From: a virus | DNA: 64,000 nucleotides | Strand: one strand, 5' to 3' | IMG/VR virus record: IMGVR_UViG_3300032070_000613 | Span: 62,001-126,000 of that record | Shown: piece after piece, positions 3,001 to 64,000 of the stretch | How the letters are laid out: each line of letters begins with the position of its first letter | Position numbering within the stretch: the first letter of the stretch is position 1 | Notes under the pieces: generated by a model | Database searches by the model: none | What the model was told of the DNA's origin: nothing | Seen by the model: only the letters and a program-made list of their open reading frames with translations | Position numbers and translations under genes: made by a program

Positions 3001-6000
3001 CACCAATACGCGCCGTATCAAAAAGCCTTTTTTGAAATTGCTACTCGCGTTGTTGTTCCCTCTATCAGATTCGATAGCGGAGGAGACCAAGAATTTTAAA
3101 ATTCAAGTGAAGAAAGACTCCGAGGGTCCCTGGGAGGATCTTGATCCTATCGATTTGAGTAAACTCAGTTTCAAAGAGGAACGCAATGTAGATGATGTTT
3201 TGGATAGTCTGCGATATGATTTTACAGAGATAGCATCCCTGCCTGGAAAAAAGTTCTATGATATCAAAGAAGATGAAACTAAAGGATTTCACCAGCAGTT
3301 TTATTTGAGTTTTGAGAAGATTTATGATGCGGATACCCCTGGTGGATATTTCGAGGGCATCGTGCTGCGGGCGAAAGACAGGGCATGGTGGTTTAGGATA
3401 GTGGATGGTGGTACTGAGGATATCATAGACAATTATGGGTTTGACTCCTCTAATGAGTACAGAAATTTTTATGATCCCGATAACATTTTCAAAAAAATGT
3501 TGAAGGAAAAACAGGCCTGGGAGACAGAGAGTCTCATAATAAAAGATCTCTATGACCATAGTGATAAATTAGCGCGTGCTTTTGATCAGGGAGACATGAA
3601 TCGGGCTAATAGTAGATATCAGGGATATCTCGCTAAACAGGACATTTCCACTCTTTTTACTACTACTTTCTCGGTCACCAAAGAGATATCAGGTATAATC
3701 TCCGATATTCTCACTACCGGTATAAATATTCCATCAGGCACGTTTGTCACTGTGAGCAGCACCGGTGGCACTCTACCAGTCCCTTTGAAAGAAGGCACCG
3801 TCTACTATGTGATAAATACGGGTGATAAAAAATGTAGACTGGCTACCGTGACGAGTAATAATCAGCAGGGGTCGGATGTCAATATCACTGCTGGGGGGAC
3901 TAAAGATAGCAGTAAAAAAACGGATACTGTACCATATTCGCTGAAAATGGACCAAGCTAATCCTGAGGGTATCTCTGATGTACTCACCGCCAGTATACCC
4001 GCCTATGAGCCGCAGCTGGGATTTTTGATAGATGGTCAGGGCCCCGTGTATAGGACTCTCTATCCTGATCTGGTCCACCCAGAGGATAGTGCCTCTCGGT
4101 CTATTGCTGCCACCTACCAGCAGACGAGTATGGCTCTCGGTATATATAGTGGTGCGTGGCAGAAAGAGCAGTTTTTCAAGAATCTCAATTATACGAATAA
4201 TAGTACATGGAAAAATGATTATATCCGGTGGGTGCTCGGTTTTTCTCCTGGTTTGATTTATCAAAAAGATGCCAAGCAGATGTATGAGCAGAATCTCGGA
4301 GTGATTACGGTAGGTTTAAAAGAGCTGCCCGCTTTGAGATTCAGACTGGTCCCTAGCACTGTTTTCTCGGTAGAGAACGCCACGCTGACGGTGTCCTGGG
4401 ACAATAGCGGCAAATATATACGAGTCATTTTTGATGTGGTCAATATAGCTGATCCATCTGATGTAGATATCGGTGTCTCTGTCGTGTTCAAGCTCTATGA
4501 CATAGTCTCAGTAAAAGGTATCGATACTCTCATATATAAAATGTTGGGAGAGGTCTGCGCTGATATTAATGCCTATAGATTTTATAAGTATAGTGGGGTG
4601 CCTTTATTTTCCTGTGAGGACATTTTTGCATATTACGAATACAATATCACTTCGAAAATGCTCGCTGTATACGGCATCCCGGTAGATGTCGCGACAGGGG
4701 CCGTTTTGAGTGTGACTACGGTGGAGGACCATCGTAGCTCAGACCCGAGAGTGTTGTTTCTCAATAAAGGTATAGAGGATAGGCTCTATACCCATGTGAT
4801 TCGTAACATACCGGCGTTTAATCTCGGATATACGGGGGATTACTATAGACAGAGTCTGGATGGTCCTGCTATACAGATCATCAATATAGCGCCTATGCCA
4901 AATATGTCCTATAGCGTAAATTTAGATGGAGCAGGTAAAAAGCAGTTGGTAATAAAGTATGGGGCTCCGTCACTGAATTTGTCGGCGGTGTTTCCTATTT
5001 ATAATGCATCGACTGACACCTACAAGACACTGAGTGAGCTGGCCCAGAGTATCAATGGATATCTTTATCGTACGTATAATATTTTTCGTGCCACTGTTTT
5101 GTATACTACTTATCCCGCGGCCAATCTATCCGCTGATTGTTTGTCTCTGTGTAATGATTTTATCCCGGCTACACTGTCAGCGGGGCATCTGACAAACATT
5201 GTGTATGTGCATGTACAGACCGGTCTGGATGATATCGACCCGGAGATCAATCAGGGTATTTACCGGGTGTTTTATGATACAGATGCCAGGAAAAAATTAG
5301 AGATACGATTCAATGAGATAATAGTAAATGGGTCTCGCATTGAGGAAACCCGTAATACCGGTGCTCGTTTCGTGATTGATTTTCAAAATCCCGATGGGAC
5401 TTTCAAAACTCTTACGAAGTTCTGTACTGATGTGTCAGTCACTGAATATAAACATACAAAATTATTTACGGCTACGCCTGCCCATACAGACAGTCCTGAG
5501 GCCACTCAGTATATAATCGTGGATAATACCGATCGATTCCTGGGGTTTGATAAATCTGATACTGTGTATATGGATACGTATACAGTGGATATCAATGACC
5601 CCGCGACAGCTCGGAGTGTGCTCAACACTCAAAATGCATATTTTTCTCATCCGATATATACCTCCAACGGTAATCCTAATAAATTACCCATAGACGGTAT
5701 ACCGGTGTCAGGTGAGTGGGACACTACTGTGAGTGAGCAGGTGCTCTCATTGAGCTGTAAAAACGGTACTACCTGGGAGGTGACTTTCAATGATTATGAG
5801 AGTGGCTCGAATAAAAGTTTCAAACCTACCCAGGAGATAATCAATCTGATAGATACTGCGCATAGTTTGACTGAGGGGCAGTTCCAGAGTATAGGTAATG
5901 TCGAGGACCGCCCTGTAGTAGCGATGATTAAAGAGCTCGTACTGAGGAGGATCCCCTACGCAGATGTTACTATAATATCAGAAATTTTTACCGTTGATAT

Positions 6001-36363: not shown

Positions 36364-38064
36364 ATGAATATAGATCCTCGTCATATTAAGCAAATATCAG
36401 ATACTAAGGCAACATTATCTGGTGCTGGTCCAAAAAGATTAAAAAAGAAGCAGATCGCTATTCAAGAAGATCTCTCTGCTAAAAGATTGTCTTTCAGAAC
36501 ATCTCTGAATGAATATGTCGAATGCGCAAATGTAGCTGATGCCACAGGCATTACCGGTCCTGCTGGTATACCAGGACCTACAGGGCCCTCAGCGGGTCCT
36601 CAGGGAGATACAGGATTACCAGGTCCTACGGGTATAGCAGGGACTTATGGGTTAACAGGATTGCCAGGGATACAGGGGCCTACAGGAGCTTTTGGTGGTG
36701 CTCCTGGAGAGACAGGATTGCTTGGGGCTACTGGCGTCCGCGGCATGACAGGTATTAACGGTCTTATAGGCAGTACTGGATCGCAAGGTTTAACGGGTGC
36801 GTCTGGTGTGACAGGTATTTCTGGAGTGACTGGTGATCAAGGAAATACGGGCGTCCAAGGTTTAACTGGTTCTCAAGGAGCTACTGGAGTATCTGGCGTT
36901 ACAGGATTGTTTGGTGTGACTGGAGATCAGGGGAATACAGGAGTACAGGGTGCGACTGGTGTAGGTCTGCAAGGAGTCACAGGAATTGGTGTCACAGGTC
37001 TCAGTGGGGTAACCGGCTCTCGAGGAGAGACGGGATCTCAGGGTCTCACCGGATTGATTGGAATCACAGGGCTCGAAGGGAGTACGGGTGTCCAGGGAAT
37101 AACTGGTGAACCTGGTTTGACCGGTATGCCTGGAATCACTGGTCAACAAGGCGCACAAGGGCTCACAGGTATCATAGGGATTACAGGAGCTCTTGGGACT
37201 ACAGGTTTTGTAGGAATTACAGGTTTTCAGGGAATAACAGGTCTGCAAGGATCCCAAGGGATAACTGGAGAACAGGGTGCTACAGGAGCTCTTGGGACTA
37301 CAGGTTATATAGGAATCACGGGTCAACAGGGAGCTCAGGGGCTCACAGGTGTTATTGGGCTGACCGGATCTCAAGGCATTACGGGAGAGCCTGGTCTAAC
37401 AGGAATTTTAGGCATTACAGGGATTGTTGGAGTTCAAGGTTTAACGGGAGATCAGGGATCTCAAGGATTGACTGGTACTATTGGATTAACAGGAACTATT
37501 GGAATTACAGGACAGCAGGGAGTATTTGGATTAACGGGATATGCTGGTATCACAGGTCCTGAGGGAGCTGGTGGTAATACGGGAGCACAGGGAGTAACTG
37601 GGAATCAAGGAGAAACAGGAGCTGGAATTCAAGGATCGACGGGATTGCGGGGATCAACCGGGATGTCTGGTATTGGTAGTGCAGGAGGCGTCACAGGAAT
37701 GATCAATATCACATTCAACGGTAATAGCAATCCTGTGTCTACAGGCGAAAAAACCATAATAAATCTACCGTTTAATTTACAGCTGGATGGCTGGAGATTT
37801 CTAGCGAATGCGACAGGGAGTATTTCTGTTGATATGGCCATCTCTAGCTATACTAATTATCCTTTTACAGGGCCTCTTATGCATGCCGGTTCTACAGGTC
37901 CTTATATATCTGCTGGAATAAAAAATGAAGATACAGATCTGAGTGATTGGGTTAATGCAACGGGAGCGGCAGGAGAACTAATCAGAGTTAGTGTAGGATC
38001 CGTGACAGGGATTTCTATGGCATATCTTTCTTTAAATTATCATCAACTCTATAATGTCATTTAA
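36364..38064 (+). CDS. long collagen-like (Gly-X-Thr) tail fibre protein
   Basis: A 566-residue protein. A 60-residue basic N-terminus is followed by roughly 380 residues of Gly-X-Y repeats, mostly with Thr or Gln in the Y position (GITGLQGVTG style), to about residue 445, then a compact C-terminal beta domain (NLPFNLQLDGWRFLANATGS). Thr in the Y position is typical of bacterial and phage collagen-like proteins that can be O-glycosylated. The start has AAAGGAG upstream. It likely forms a trimeric fibre shaft with a C-terminal tip. Its TAA stop falls inside the left hairpin of the IscB element. Confidence 0.75.
   Translation: MNIDPRHIKQISDTKATLSGAGPKRLKKKQIAIQEDLSAKRLSFRTSLNEYVECANVADATGITGPAGIPGPTGPSAGPQGDTGLPGPTGIAGTYGLTGLPGIQGPTGAFGGAPGETGLLGATGVRGMTGINGLIGSTGSQGLTGASGVTGISGVTGDQGNTGVQGLTGSQGATGVSGVTGLFGVTGDQGNTGVQGATGVGLQGVTGIGVTGLSGVTGSRGETGSQGLTGLIGITGLEGSTGVQGITGEPGLTGMPGITGQQGAQGLTGIIGITGALGTTGFVGITGFQGITGLQGSQGITGEQGATGALGTTGYIGITGQQGAQGLTGVIGLTGSQGITGEPGLTGILGITGIVGVQGLTGDQGSQGLTGTIGLTGTIGITGQQGVFGLTGYAGITGPEGAGGNTGAQGVTGNQGETGAGIQGSTGLRGSTGMSGIGSAGGVTGMINITFNGNSNPVSTGEKTIINLPFNLQLDGWRFLANATGSISVDMAISSYTNYPFTGPLMHAGSTGPYISAGIKNEDTDLSDWVNATGAAGELIRVSVGSVTGISMAYLSLNYHQLYNVI
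37184..37330 (+). repeat. internal duplication in the collagen-coding region
   Basis: A segment reading ACAGGAGCTCTTGGGACTAC begins near 37184 and again near 37283, and each copy runs on into closely similar sequence. This indicates slippage or recombination that changes stalk length by about 33 residues. Confidence 0.5.
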
Positions 38065-38079
38065 AAATGACGTTGTGGG
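38048..38079 (+). other. left-boundary hairpin of IscB copy 1
   Basis: TCTATAATGTCAT (38048-38060) can pair with ATGACGTTGTGGG (38067-38079), 13 pairs including four G-U pairs. All four become Watson-Crick pairs in copy 2. The fibre gene's TAA stop (38062-38064) lies in the loop. Confidence 0.6.
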
Positions 38080-38251
38080 AGTCTAGGGAGCTTATTCAAT
38101 AAAATGAATATGCAGACGTTACAACCAAAGTTCAAGAACGTACCTACGGATGCTTCACTAGTCCGTAGCTCTACAACTCTACCATTAAACAGGAACGAAA
38201 GCGCCAGTGTGGTAGAGAAAGTACTGAGTTGTAACAATCCCGAAGTGAATC
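38048..38251 (+). ncRNA. putative omega RNA (HEARO-like) scaffold, copy 1
   Basis: This segment lies just upstream of and overlaps the 5' part of the iscB frame, where IscB guide RNAs are encoded. Foldable stems: GCTTATTCA/TGAATATGC (38090-38098 with 38105-38113, one mismatch), ACGTT/AACGT (38116-38120 with 38137-38141), CTACGGA/TCCGTAG (38144-38150 with 38162-38168), and CTCTACCA/TGGTAGAG (38177-38184 with 38210-38217) enclosed by ACAA/TTGT. Over 38080-38251 it differs from copy 2 at only three bases; two are in a loop and one turns a G-C pair into G-U. In IscB systems the guide is the sequence directly 5' of the scaffold, here inside the 3' end of the fibre gene. Confidence 0.75.
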
Positions 38252-39462
38252 TACGGAAACAGGTATCCGGACTTACAGTCATTGTACCTGTACTCTCTTT
38301 GGAGGGGAGTCCTCTAATGCCGTGCACTCCAGTTAAAGCACGGCACCTTTTAGAAAAAAGGAGAGCCCATGTCGTAAAACTAAATCCTTTTATTATTAGA
38401 TTGAATTTCAAGTGTGAAAGCATAGTTCAGGAAATCAGTTTCGGAATGGATGCCGGATACAAAAATATTGGATATTCAGCGATTACAGATACAAAAGAAA
38501 TTTTATCAGGTGAAATAGCTCTGGATAATAAAACTAAAAGCAGAATGAACGAAAGAAAAATGTATAGAAGAAATAGAAGGTATCGTCTGAGGTATAGAAA
38601 ACCAAGATTCGATAATAGGGTAAAACCCGAGGGATGGCTCCCTCCCTCTATAAAGAGAAAATTTGATACCCATATAAATTTCATAAAAGGGCTCAAAAAA
38701 ATGTTACCTATCAAAAAGGTCACAGTTGAGATAGGAAATTTTGATATTCAAAAGATAGAGAATCCCGATATCTCTGGAGTCCAGTATCAGCAGGGTGATT
38801 TATACGGGTATTATAATTTGAAACTCTATCTTTTGGAGAGGGAAAAAGGAAAGTGTCAACTCTGCGGGAAAAAATTCACTAAAGAAAATAAACCCCACAT
38901 GCACCATATAAAACAAAGGAGTGAGGGTGGTACTAGTAGAGCTGAGGGTATCGCTCTTATACATAAAAGTTGTCATGAAGATTTGCATAAGAAAAAATTA
39001 TTTCATAAATTGAAACCAGCTAAAGCTTATAAAGCAGAAACTTTTATGTCTATAGTTGGAGGGATGTTCAAGAAATTTTTAGATTGTGATGTTACTTACG
39101 GATATGAGACGTGTGCTAAAAGAAAAGAGTTAGGTTTAGAGAAATCTCATGTGAATGATGCCTTTGTTATAGCCGGAGGGACTATTCAAACTAGATGCCT
39201 ACCTAGTATGATAGAGCAAAAGAGAATTAATAACAGGACTCTGCAGACGAATAGAAAAGGTTTTTCTTCTTCTATTAGGAAACAGAGGCATAAAATACAA
39301 AATAGAGATTTTATTTGGATTAGTGGTAAAAAATATTTGAGTGGAGGCGTGGCTAGTAGAGGGACTCAGGTATATTATTTTGATGGGAGTGAGAAGAAAC
39401 TCATCCCTTCTAAAAAGATTGAAAAAATTTATAATACTGATAATTTGATTTGGCTAGATTAA
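38104..39462 (+). CDS. iscB: IscB-like RNA-guided HNH/RuvC nuclease, copy 1
   Basis: The open frame starts at 38104 but its first part overlaps the RNA scaffold. IscB homology (VPVLSLEGSPLMPC, the PLMP motif) begins near residue 60, so translation more likely starts at GTG 38245 or at ATG 38317, which has GGAG seven bases upstream, conserved in copy 2. Motifs (numbered from 38104): RuvC-I FGMDAGYKNIGYSAI (D116), Arg-rich bridge helix 155-168, RuvC-II VEIGNFD (E209) followed by SGVQYQQGDLYG, HNH with CQLC (251-254), HMHH (265-268) and CH (290-291), RuvC-III HVNDAF (H349, D352), and a C-terminal domain. The Asn usual in the HNH loop appears replaced (EGIAL). Predicted to cut DNA guided by the adjacent RNA. 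From 38317 it has 381 residues, a normal size. Confidence 0.85.
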   Translation: MNMQTLQPKFKNVPTDASLVRSSTTLPLNRNESASVVEKVLSCNNPEVNLRKQVSGLTVIVPVLSLEGSPLMPCTPVKARHLLEKRRAHVVKLNPFIIRLNFKCESIVQEISFGMDAGYKNIGYSAITDTKEILSGEIALDNKTKSRMNERKMYRRNRRYRLRYRKPRFDNRVKPEGWLPPSIKRKFDTHINFIKGLKKMLPIKKVTVEIGNFDIQKIENPDISGVQYQQGDLYGYYNLKLYLLEREKGKCQLCGKKFTKENKPHMHHIKQRSEGGTSRAEGIALIHKSCHEDLHKKKLFHKLKPAKAYKAETFMSIVGGMFKKFLDCDVTYGYETCAKRKELGLEKSHVNDAFVIAGGTIQTRCLPSMIEQKRINNRTLQTNRKGFSSSIRKQRHKIQNRDFIWISGKKYLSGGVASRGTQVYYFDGSEKKLIPSKKIEKIYNTDNLIWLD

Positions 39463-39476
39463 ATGTCGTTATAGAG
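39461..39476 (+). repeat. right-end sequence of IscB copy 1
   Basis: AAATGTCGTTATAGAG follows the iscB stop. Its reverse complement matches 38047-38062 at 14 of 16 positions; it also resembles the hairpin right arm AAATGACGTTGTGGGAG (38065-38081) in direct orientation. Probably marks the element's right end. Confidence 0.45.
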
Positions 39477-39487
39477 TTAAAAACAAT

Positions 39488-62464: not shown

Positions 62465-63627
62465 CCGATGAAATAGACATCAGTGACATCCTGGAAGATG
62501 AGGTGGAGGAGAGTCCCGCTCAATCCCAAGTGACTCCGGCTATCCCCGACTCTCCAGACAGCCCCGCCCGGAAAGAAATAGCGCAGCTGAGAGATCGTCT
62601 GAGAGTATCTCACGAGCACTGCCGTGATCTTTTCGTGGATATGAGGACTGTGGACTACATAGCTACTCCCGATGACTCCTATATCGAATTTCTGGATAAA
62701 AATTATTACGACAAAAGGCTGTATTTTAAAGTGGACCCTCAGAGACCGAATGATCCTAAAATCATAATAGCCCAGCAGCAATTTTGCAAGCTGCTAGGTA
62801 TCCCCTATAAATTTTTTGCCGCTAACAGGCCCTCCCTGAAAATGAACATCGTGAAGACCTGGCAGGCAGGCCTGACCGCGGATGAGAGTAAAGCCCAGAG
62901 CGTCCTCAAAATTCGGGAGTCTAAAGATTGCTCTATCATCAGAGCATTCATACCAGTAACTAAATGCTGCGTACCTCTCTATGAACTCATAGACATAATC
63001 CTGAATGGCGTGACTATCCCTCTCACAATGGAGTTCGTGTACGGGGATGAAAGGGATGATTTGATATTACACGCCCGTTTTCTTTTTAACAAAGAATATA
63101 CGGTACTGGGATCTAAGGTGTGCGTGGGATTTTCTTTGATAGCGTCTGAGCTGGATGCCTCCCCATTCATAATAGAAATCTTTTTACATGATAAAGAGTT
63201 TGCAACTTCGTATATTAGTACATATGGCGGGGACCCCTTTTTCAAGTCTAAATATGACGGTATCAAAGCGGATCAAATTAAAGATCTGATCCCTAAAATG
63301 TTAAACAGAATCGATAGTGAAGCTCCCGAAATGATAGAAAGGGTAGAGAAGAAAGTATCCGATACTATGCAGAGCGGATTTTTTTGTGCGGAAACTGAGT
63401 GCGTATCGCTACTGAAAGCTAAGGGTATCAACGGCAAAGTGAAAAAAGCGGTATATCATCAGATTACTGAGTGCCAGGATAAAATCAAAACTCCCTGGGA
63501 TATTGCTCGTCACGTGGGTCTGGTGGCTAAAGATTTAGATTCGATAAAGAGGCTCGCTGTAGAGCGGGCTATAGGTCAATATTTGCGACTAACTTTTTCT
63601 AACCCTACAACGTCATATAAAAAATGA
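62461..63627 (+). CDS. DUF932-like conserved phage protein
   Basis: A 388-residue protein. After an acidic N-terminus, a FCKLLGIPYKFFAANRPSLK segment and the following helical and beta parts resemble DUF932/phage-plasmid proteins of unknown function. It ends with TGA inside the sequence AAATGA, which is also the boundary of the second IscB element; the last residues (PTTSYKK) lie in the left hairpin arm. This raises the possibility that the normal C-terminus or coupling to a downstream gene was changed by insertion. Confidence 0.5.
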   Translation: MTDEIDISDILEDEVEESPAQSQVTPAIPDSPDSPARKEIAQLRDRLRVSHEHCRDLFVDMRTVDYIATPDDSYIEFLDKNYYDKRLYFKVDPQRPNDPKIIIAQQQFCKLLGIPYKFFAANRPSLKMNIVKTWQAGLTADESKAQSVLKIRESKDCSIIRAFIPVTKCCVPLYELIDIILNGVTIPLTMEFVYGDERDDLILHARFLFNKEYTVLGSKVCVGFSLIASELDASPFIIEIFLHDKEFATSYISTYGGDPFFKSKYDGIKADQIKDLIPKMLNRIDSEAPEMIERVEKKVSDTMQSGFFCAETECVSLLKAKGINGKVKKAVYHQITECQDKIKTPWDIARHVGLVAKDLDSIKRLAVERAIGQYLRLTFSNPTTSYKK

Positions 63628-63636
63628 CGATGTAGG
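63604..63636 (+). other. left-boundary hairpin of IscB copy 2
   Basis: CCTACAACGTCAT (63604-63616) pairs with ATGACGATGTAGG (63624-63636), 12 of 13 Watson-Crick pairs with one A-A mismatch. The DUF932-like gene's TGA stop is at 63625-63627 in the right arm. Confidence 0.65.
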
Positions 63637-63808
63637 AGTCTAGGGAGCTTATTCAGTAACATGAATATGCAGACGTTACAACCAAAGTTCAAGAACGTAC
63701 CTACGGATGCTTCACTAGTCTGTAGCTCTACAACTCTACCATTAAACAGGAACGAAAGCGCCAGTGTGGTAGAGAAAGTACTGAGTTGTAACAATCCCGA
63801 AGTGAATC
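63604..63808 (+). ncRNA. putative omega RNA (HEARO-like) scaffold, copy 2
   Basis: Almost the same sequence as copy 1: over 63637-63808 only three bases differ. All stems listed for copy 1 are kept; the base at 63721 is T instead of C and makes a G-U pair in the CTACGGA/TCTGTAG stem. The sequence just 5' of it (end of the DUF932-like gene) would supply the guide and differs from that of copy 1, as expected of a mobile guide-RNA system. Confidence 0.75.
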
Positions 63809-64000
63809 TTCACTGGAAACGGGTATCCGGACTTAAAGTCATTGTACCCGTACTCTCTTTAAAAAGGAGTCCTTTAATGCCTTGCGGTTTGATCAAAGCT
63901 CGTCACTTAATTAAAGGAGGTAAAGCAAAAGTAGTTAAACTGAACCCACTAGTCATTCAGCTTAAATTTGACTGTGAAAACCAGATCCAAGATGTTTCTT
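63661..64000 (+). CDS. iscB: IscB-like nuclease, copy 2, N-terminal part (cut by window edge)
   Basis: The frame is open to the window end. It contains the PLMP motif region (VIVPVLSLKRSPLMPC) followed by IKARHLIKGGKAKVVKLNP, the usual IscB N-terminus; the RuvC and HNH motifs would lie beyond the edge. The ATG at 63877 has AAGGAG seven bases upstream; the earlier frame overlaps the RNA scaffold. The coding part aligned with copy 1 after that ATG agrees at about 70 of 123 bases by hand count, so it is a diverged paralogue rather than a recent duplicate. Confidence 0.75.
   Translation, partial: MNMQTLQPKFKNVPTDASLVCSSTTLPLNRNESASVVEKVLSCNNPEVNLHWKRVSGLKVIVPVLSLKRSPLMPCGLIKARHLIKGGKAKVVKLNPLVIQLKFDCENQIQDVS

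Follow-up and report, generated by a model that had tools for sequence, protein, structure and literature searches.

The ωRNA of OgeuIscB consists of a guide and a scaffold, and the scaffold opens with a guide adaptor hairpin of 14 bp, which a single linker nucleotide separates from the nexus stem (Kato et al. 2022, PMC9640706). In the HEARO/IscB systems described so far, the RNA is located in the 5' UTR (PMC9755519). Guide adaptor hairpins as a class contact the bridge helix and the WED domain in the ribonucleoprotein. IscB is an accessory gene of one group of IS200/IS605 elements, in which, as predicted for the elements analysed here, the left flank supplies the guide. To our knowledge, IS200/IS605 elements lack inverted terminal repeats.

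The window analysed here, a stretch of 64,000 nucleotides, forms part of a virus record of 141,095 bases and contains copy 1 and the left part of copy 2 of an IscB element; a third copy is located outside the window in the same genome. All three copies scored above the gathering score of 83 bits for the Rfam family HEARO (Table 1). The ωRNA is located directly upstream of iscB on the same strand in copies 1 and 2, and iscB has been lost from the third copy. Searches against NCBIfam NF040563 (guided_IscB equivalog, cut-off 175) gave 300.8 bits for copy 1 and 298.2 bits for copy 2, and the Pfam domains RRXRR and HNH were both matched in the IscB of copy 1. The RuvC D/E/H/D and HNH HHI..H residues are conserved. 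The middle Asn of the HNH domain, which is kept in the two related elements L004 and L005 from other viral contigs, is replaced by Gly in copy 1 (region about 38895-38985) and by Asp in copy 2, and the HNH activity of these two copies may be altered.

Copies 1 and 2 align with the HEARO model in the nexus, the central stem and the pseudoknot, but the first stem of the model (GUCAacua..uaguUGAC) holds two inner hairpins, whereas a single simple hairpin is present here. Because of this replacement the Rfam model misplaces the 5' end, at 38069 in copy 1 and 63587 in copy 2. We rejected this placement, which leaves only three pairs (GAC/GUC) in the first stem of copy 1 and enters the flank in copy 2. 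Aligning the nexus stem UAGGGAGC to OgeuIscB by eye, using the published numbering (PMC9640706), makes C38083 the last nucleotide of the hairpin and A38045 nucleotide 1 of the scaffold. The resulting hairpin resembles stem loop 1 of OgeuIscB, its guide adaptor hairpin: both open the scaffold immediately 3' of the guide, are about 14-15 bp long and are separated from the nexus stem by a single nucleotide. The closing position is non-canonical in both, G1:A43 in OgeuIscB and, by position, A45/C83 here (positions without their leading digits refer to 380xx). The two hairpins differ in sequence, in a bulged A near the base and in that the 5' arm is here also a terminal inverted repeat. The structure is a stem of about 14 bp with conserved pairing, and it immediately precedes the nexus stem in a HEARO/ωRNA that adjoins an IscB gene, which identifies it as a guide adaptor hairpin. 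Taken as a whole, the data are very probably best explained by a shortened guide adaptor hairpin of an IscB ωRNA, with the guide located upstream and a 5' arm that is a terminal repeat as well.

Table 1. Coordinates of the features of the IscB elements; positions are those of the window unless a prefix is given.
Feature	Position	Strand	Description	Evidence
Predicted guide, copy 1	38018-38044	+	27 nt by analogy with OgeuIscB (PMC9640706), at least the last 16-17 nt; flanking phage sequence, 3' end of collagen-like gene 36364-38064	Flank divergence (predicted)
Guide adaptor hairpin, copy 1	38045-38083	+	38046-38060 with 38067-38082, A38080 bulged, loop 38061-38066; 38045 is scaffold nt 1	Fold z, pairs in five copies, adjoins nexus stem of Rfam HEARO match
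Pairs of copy 1, outer part			T38048-G38079, C49-G78, T50-G77, A51-T76, T52-G75, A53-T74, A54-T73
Pairs of copy 1, inner part			T55-G72, G56-C71, T57-A70, C58-G69, A59-T68, T60-A67
Left terminal inverted repeat, copy 1	38045-38064	+	Overlaps hairpin 5' arm	18/20 against inverted right end
HEARO / IscB ωRNA scaffold, copy 1	38069-38254	+	True scaffold start is 38045	Rfam RF02033, 88.7 bits
IscB frame, copy 1	38110-39462	+	Open from ATG inside ωRNA scaffold (ATGCAG); conventional IscB part from about 38285-38320
Right terminal inverted repeat and right end, copy 1	39459-39478	+	Predicted TAM side from 39479 (AAAAACAATATG)
Predicted guide, copy 2	63574-63600	+		Left-flank divergence point (predicted)
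HEARO match, copy 2	63587-63812	+	Portion before 63601 is model fitting into flank	Rfam RF02033, 85.4 bits
Guide adaptor hairpin, copy 2	63601-63640	+	63602-63616 with 63624-63639, A63637 bulged, A63610/A63630 mismatch; 63601 is scaffold nt 1 and element left end	Fold z -6.9, pair count
IscB frame start, copy 2	63667-64000	+	Inside its ωRNA; runs past window to G000:127022
Right repeat, copy 2	G000:127019-127038		Beyond window
HEARO match, third copy	G000:137454-137639		Outside window	Rfam RF02033, 90.2 bits

Read directly, the hairpin of copy 1 consists of 13 pairs, four of which are G-U. The sequence-only reading had set its limits at 38048-38079, which is too narrow, as the stem extends over 38046-38082 in the low-energy folds. 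The added pairs A46-U82 and C47-G81 are arranged around a bulged purine, which is A80 in the register common to all copies. Folding of the RNAs yielded z values of -7.1 for copy 1, -6.9 for copy 2 and -3.9 for the third copy relative to shuffled sequences, with no shuffle as stable. Hairpins with 13 of 13 pairs and a loop of 4-8 nt were found five times in the window and not at all in one shuffled window. All four G-U pairs of copy 1 are Watson-Crick pairs in copy 2 (63604-63636; C-G, U-A, C-G and C-G), and one pair is lost by the mismatch A63610/A63630 where copy 1 has A38054-U38073, just as the earlier reading had it. Its description of these differences as paired substitutions was overstated, however: the differences at the pairs are real, but they consist of U to C changes at 48, 52 and 55 in the 5' arm and a G to A change at 77 in the 3' arm. 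Since all four changes are one-sided, the two copies alone are consistent with a conserved stem and contain no compensatory change.

We therefore turn to the short-form set of five sequences, which consists of copies 1 and 2, the third copy, L004 and L005. A DNA-pattern search for further short-form copies yielded nothing beyond the two known contigs, apart from a chance match (L069) in a phage structural-gene region, which was discarded. Across the five copies, 87.7% of the cells in the 15 pairs are paired, as compared to 26-55% in slid registers, and four of the 15 pairs (52/75, 55/72, 56/71 and 60/67) vary on both sides, as compared to 0-2 in slid registers. Shuffled controls reached the two-sided count in 12 of 500 cases and the pairing percentage in 30 of 500, and because there are only five sequences, the covariation inside the short form is by itself suggestive. 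The three copies added to the original two all pair in this segment, although in L004 the stem has a weak inner half (z -0.75, with 46 of 200 shuffles equally stable). The fold of L005 is strong overall, with two mismatches in the inner half of the stem.

The long-form members of the clade (L006-L048) encode IscB proteins that are 46-56% identical to that of copy 1, and they share the scaffold core and, in nearly all cases, a frame through the ωRNA. They differ in having a three-way-junction adaptor, in which the first stem surrounds two small hairpins, one of them CCCC..CUAAAG..GGGG, that are absent from the short forms. The adaptor of the short forms is thus a shortened, compact form with a terminal repeat, a variant of a known structure. 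The first stem of the long forms is located at the equivalent place and is a different one, GUCAAC..GUUGAU immediately before UAG. These forms were compared in an alignment that is biased to pairing, since it was with knowledge of the 3' arm that we manually positioned the 5' arm in L012, L014 and L038 and the arm ends in L027 and L034. In its 12 distinct rows, 94% of the cells are paired and seven cells are two-sided. The covariation score of this partly manual alignment, from which L048 (3' arm without a clear partner) and L029 were left out, was 0.366 versus 0.230 (sd 0.036) in shuffled alignments, with none of 500 shuffles as high. The pairs with two-sided changes in the five short forms and the stem in the equivalent place of the long forms bear out the proposal that the main scaffold is preceded on its 5' side by a hairpin conserved in the RNA. 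Part of this conservation may serve the DNA, because the stem overlaps the DNA end of the element. On the tree, the origin of the short form needs two changes; a single origin is also compatible given the starred branches.

To locate the boundary of the element, we compared the left flanks (100 nt) of the three copies in the genome. These are unrelated up to 38044/63600, with local scores at or below the shuffled means, and the first 16 bases from 38045, 63601 and L019:3430 are 75-94% identical among the three copies. The copy of another phage, L005, has the same starting base and the same AACCCTA. Since homology starts at 38045 after unrelated flanks, the guide is predicted to end at 38044, and the boundary of the element coincides with scaffold nucleotide 1. 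The guide had been suggested to lie further upstream than an ATGA junction if the hairpin belongs to the RNA, and the divergence of the flanks supports this; the ATGA is simply the base of the 3' arm of the hairpin. The predicted guide end is 26 nt upstream of the ATGA end, and a guide set at ATGA would be wrong by this distance. The location of the guide in these phage IscB elements, required for target prediction or reprogramming, is thereby fixed. As in OMEGA systems, the sequence in the guide position is derived from the flank of the element and is different in each of the three copies, and we infer that these flanks act as guides. No empty site was found in viral contigs: the genes next to copy 2 had no match there, and those next to copy 1 identified L020 and L021 alone, at 28-32% identity and too distant for nucleotide comparison. 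The guide of the third copy, searched as a 20-mer, had no match in viral contigs. In copies 1 and 2, the element provides the last codons and the stop of the upstream phage gene (38045-38064 and 63601-63626). These genes encode a collagen-like protein, ending at 38064 with the stop at 38062-38064, and a 388-aa protein with the stop at 63624-63626.

Copy 1 of the element covers 38045-39478 (1434 bp) and is bounded by a terminal inverted repeat of about 20 bp, in which 18 of 20 positions match in copy 1 and 17 of 20 in copy 2. In 5000 random 150-nt samples, the maximum was 15 for copy 1 and 14 for copy 2, except for 13 samples each that reached 16-18, as high as the element ends themselves. When at most one mismatch is allowed, the repeat pattern occurs in the 141-kb genome at element ends alone. 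The terminal repeat of L005 is weaker (p about 0.01), none was found in L004, and none in the long forms was significant, save a single case (p about 0.04) out of the many that were tested. In copy 2, CTAA is present on either side of the inner repeat (L017:2598-2605 and 4036-4045), a possible 4-bp target duplication; the equivalent place in copy 1 has TCAA/TTAA.

The CCCC..CUAAAG..GGGG hairpins of the long forms presumably resemble the TnpA recognition hairpins of IS200/IS605, and a hairpin of this type is also present at the right end in L006, L039, L040 and L043. No right-end hairpin was found in copies 1, 2, L004 or L005. Copies 1 and 2 thus differ from IS200/IS605 elements, which have hairpins near both ends without inverted terminal repeats, in lacking the right-end hairpin and in having inverted terminal repeats, and no match to the Y1 transposase TnpA (PF01797) was found in the 141-kb record. 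With no such gene in the record, the element may move in trans, by homing or by means of an unrelated transposase; a Y1 transposase could act in trans from the host. The loss of the IS605-type sub-hairpin from the shortened adaptor and the presence of terminal inverted repeats point to a change in the movement of the element.

The overlap of the 5' arm with the terminal repeat bears on why the hairpin is conserved. It might be kept mainly as a DNA end: a transposase would recognise the 5' arm as a terminal inverted repeat, and pairing in the RNA would be a by-product of ends that resemble repeats. The match of 38045-38064 to the inverted 39459-39478 is in line with this, as are the two CTAA motifs that flank the inner repeat of copy 2, and the change at position 52 is mirrored at the right end (T-A in copy 1, C-G in copy 2) while its partner in the 3' arm of the hairpin is still G. 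However, a terminal repeat has no need of the 3' arm (38067-38082), which nevertheless pairs in all five copies and with two-sided changes. The wobbles are G-U on the strand of the ωRNA, the long forms hold a stem at the equivalent place without a terminal repeat and no Y1 transposase was found in the genome, all of which makes an origin of the conservation mainly in the DNA unlikely.

Another placement of the boundary would let the element start after ATGA (38067-38070), so that 38045-38066 is a palindromic target site and the guide ends at ATGA. This agrees with the junction of the sequence-only reading and with the start of the Rfam match in copy 1, and HEARO insertion sites have an ATGA motif. 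Yet 38045-38070 is common to three copies with unrelated flanks and to L004 and L005, which come from other phages. The right end of the element also matches it, and the first stem of the Rfam fit holds just three pairs. Moreover, ωRNA scaffolds start with a hairpin at this place (PMC9640706), and we consider a target site very improbable. The upstream genes of copies 1 and 2 stop inside the hairpin, as would be seen if it were a transcription terminator or the mRNA 3' end of the upstream gene, unconnected with the ωRNA. This is hardly credible, given that no U-run follows the stem and that the hairpin is also found in the third copy, behind a promoter-like sequence and not a coding gene, and in L004 and L005 adjoining IscB.

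If the hairpin is a guide adaptor, transcription from the upstream flank would yield an RNA whose 5' part, of a length predicted by analogy and ending at 38044, is the guide. The hairpin at 38045-38083 would join the guide to the nexus stem via the linker U38084 and help to seat the RNA in IscB. IscB with this guide would be expected to cut the empty insertion site, composed of the left flank and the AAAAA.. right flank, and such cutting may favour re-insertion or homing of the element. With the 5' arm doubling as the left terminal inverted repeat, the wobbles of copy 1 could be accounted for if the 5' arm tracks the right end and the 3' arm keeps its G, with G-U pairing retained. The changes behind this explanation are few, but the one at position 52, which follows the right end and leaves the hairpin partner as G, suggests that the G-U pairs of copy 1 arise as the 5' arm serves two partners.

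In 26 of 28 clade loci, the frame of IscB extends upstream through the ωRNA scaffold to the ATG in AUGCAG, over 71-82 codons and with no stop, and the other two forward frames contain 2-10 stops over that stretch. In an unconstrained nucleotide alignment of the 26 loci, which are related, were selected for an open frame and show few independent indels (about four in the core), 137 of 137 gap runs are multiples of three. In the remaining two loci, L033 and L038, several stops interrupt the frame upstream of IscB, and in 16 outgroup loci (L049-L064) it is open upstream for just 20-51 codons, the start in most of them being close to the PLMP motif, indicating that the RNA itself tolerates stops. 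An excess at synonymous sites is limited to the last 40% of the stretch (ratio 1.67), with none in the RNA core (1.01). Judging from this distribution, the stretch would be either a leader that is translated but whose residues matter little, or a frame that stays open because a start lies somewhere within it.

The guide RNA thus appears to lie within the frame of IscB itself. We give even chances to a model in which the ωRNA is part of the IscB coding sequence, with an AUGCAG start in the scaffold, and not a 5' UTR, so that a transcript serves as mRNA or as guide RNA, and in which a stretch of about 20 nt in the short form serves both the element end and the folding of the RNA and, in copies 1 and 2, also forms the 3' end of the phage gene upstream. 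If the frame is translated, nuclease synthesis and guide-RNA production would take place on the same molecules, a form of self-regulation. A literature search, mostly of journals open without subscription, found no published description of an overlap between the ωRNA and the IscB frame, and we regard it as the most novel lead.

The third copy (L019:3430-3680; G000:137429-137679) is a stand-alone ωRNA from which the IscB gene is missing. The IscB of copies 1 and 2 may use this RNA in trans, or the element may have decayed. A promoter-like sequence, TTGACA-17-TATATT, is located upstream of its guide at L019:3358-3386. The region downstream of the stand-alone ωRNA (L019:3700-4510), for which Rfam gave weak, sub-threshold tRNA-like and Y-RNA-like matches alone, consists of about 800 nt of diverged repeats, in which motifs of 22-26 nt recur every 155-330 nt and an 82-nt unit is present twice.
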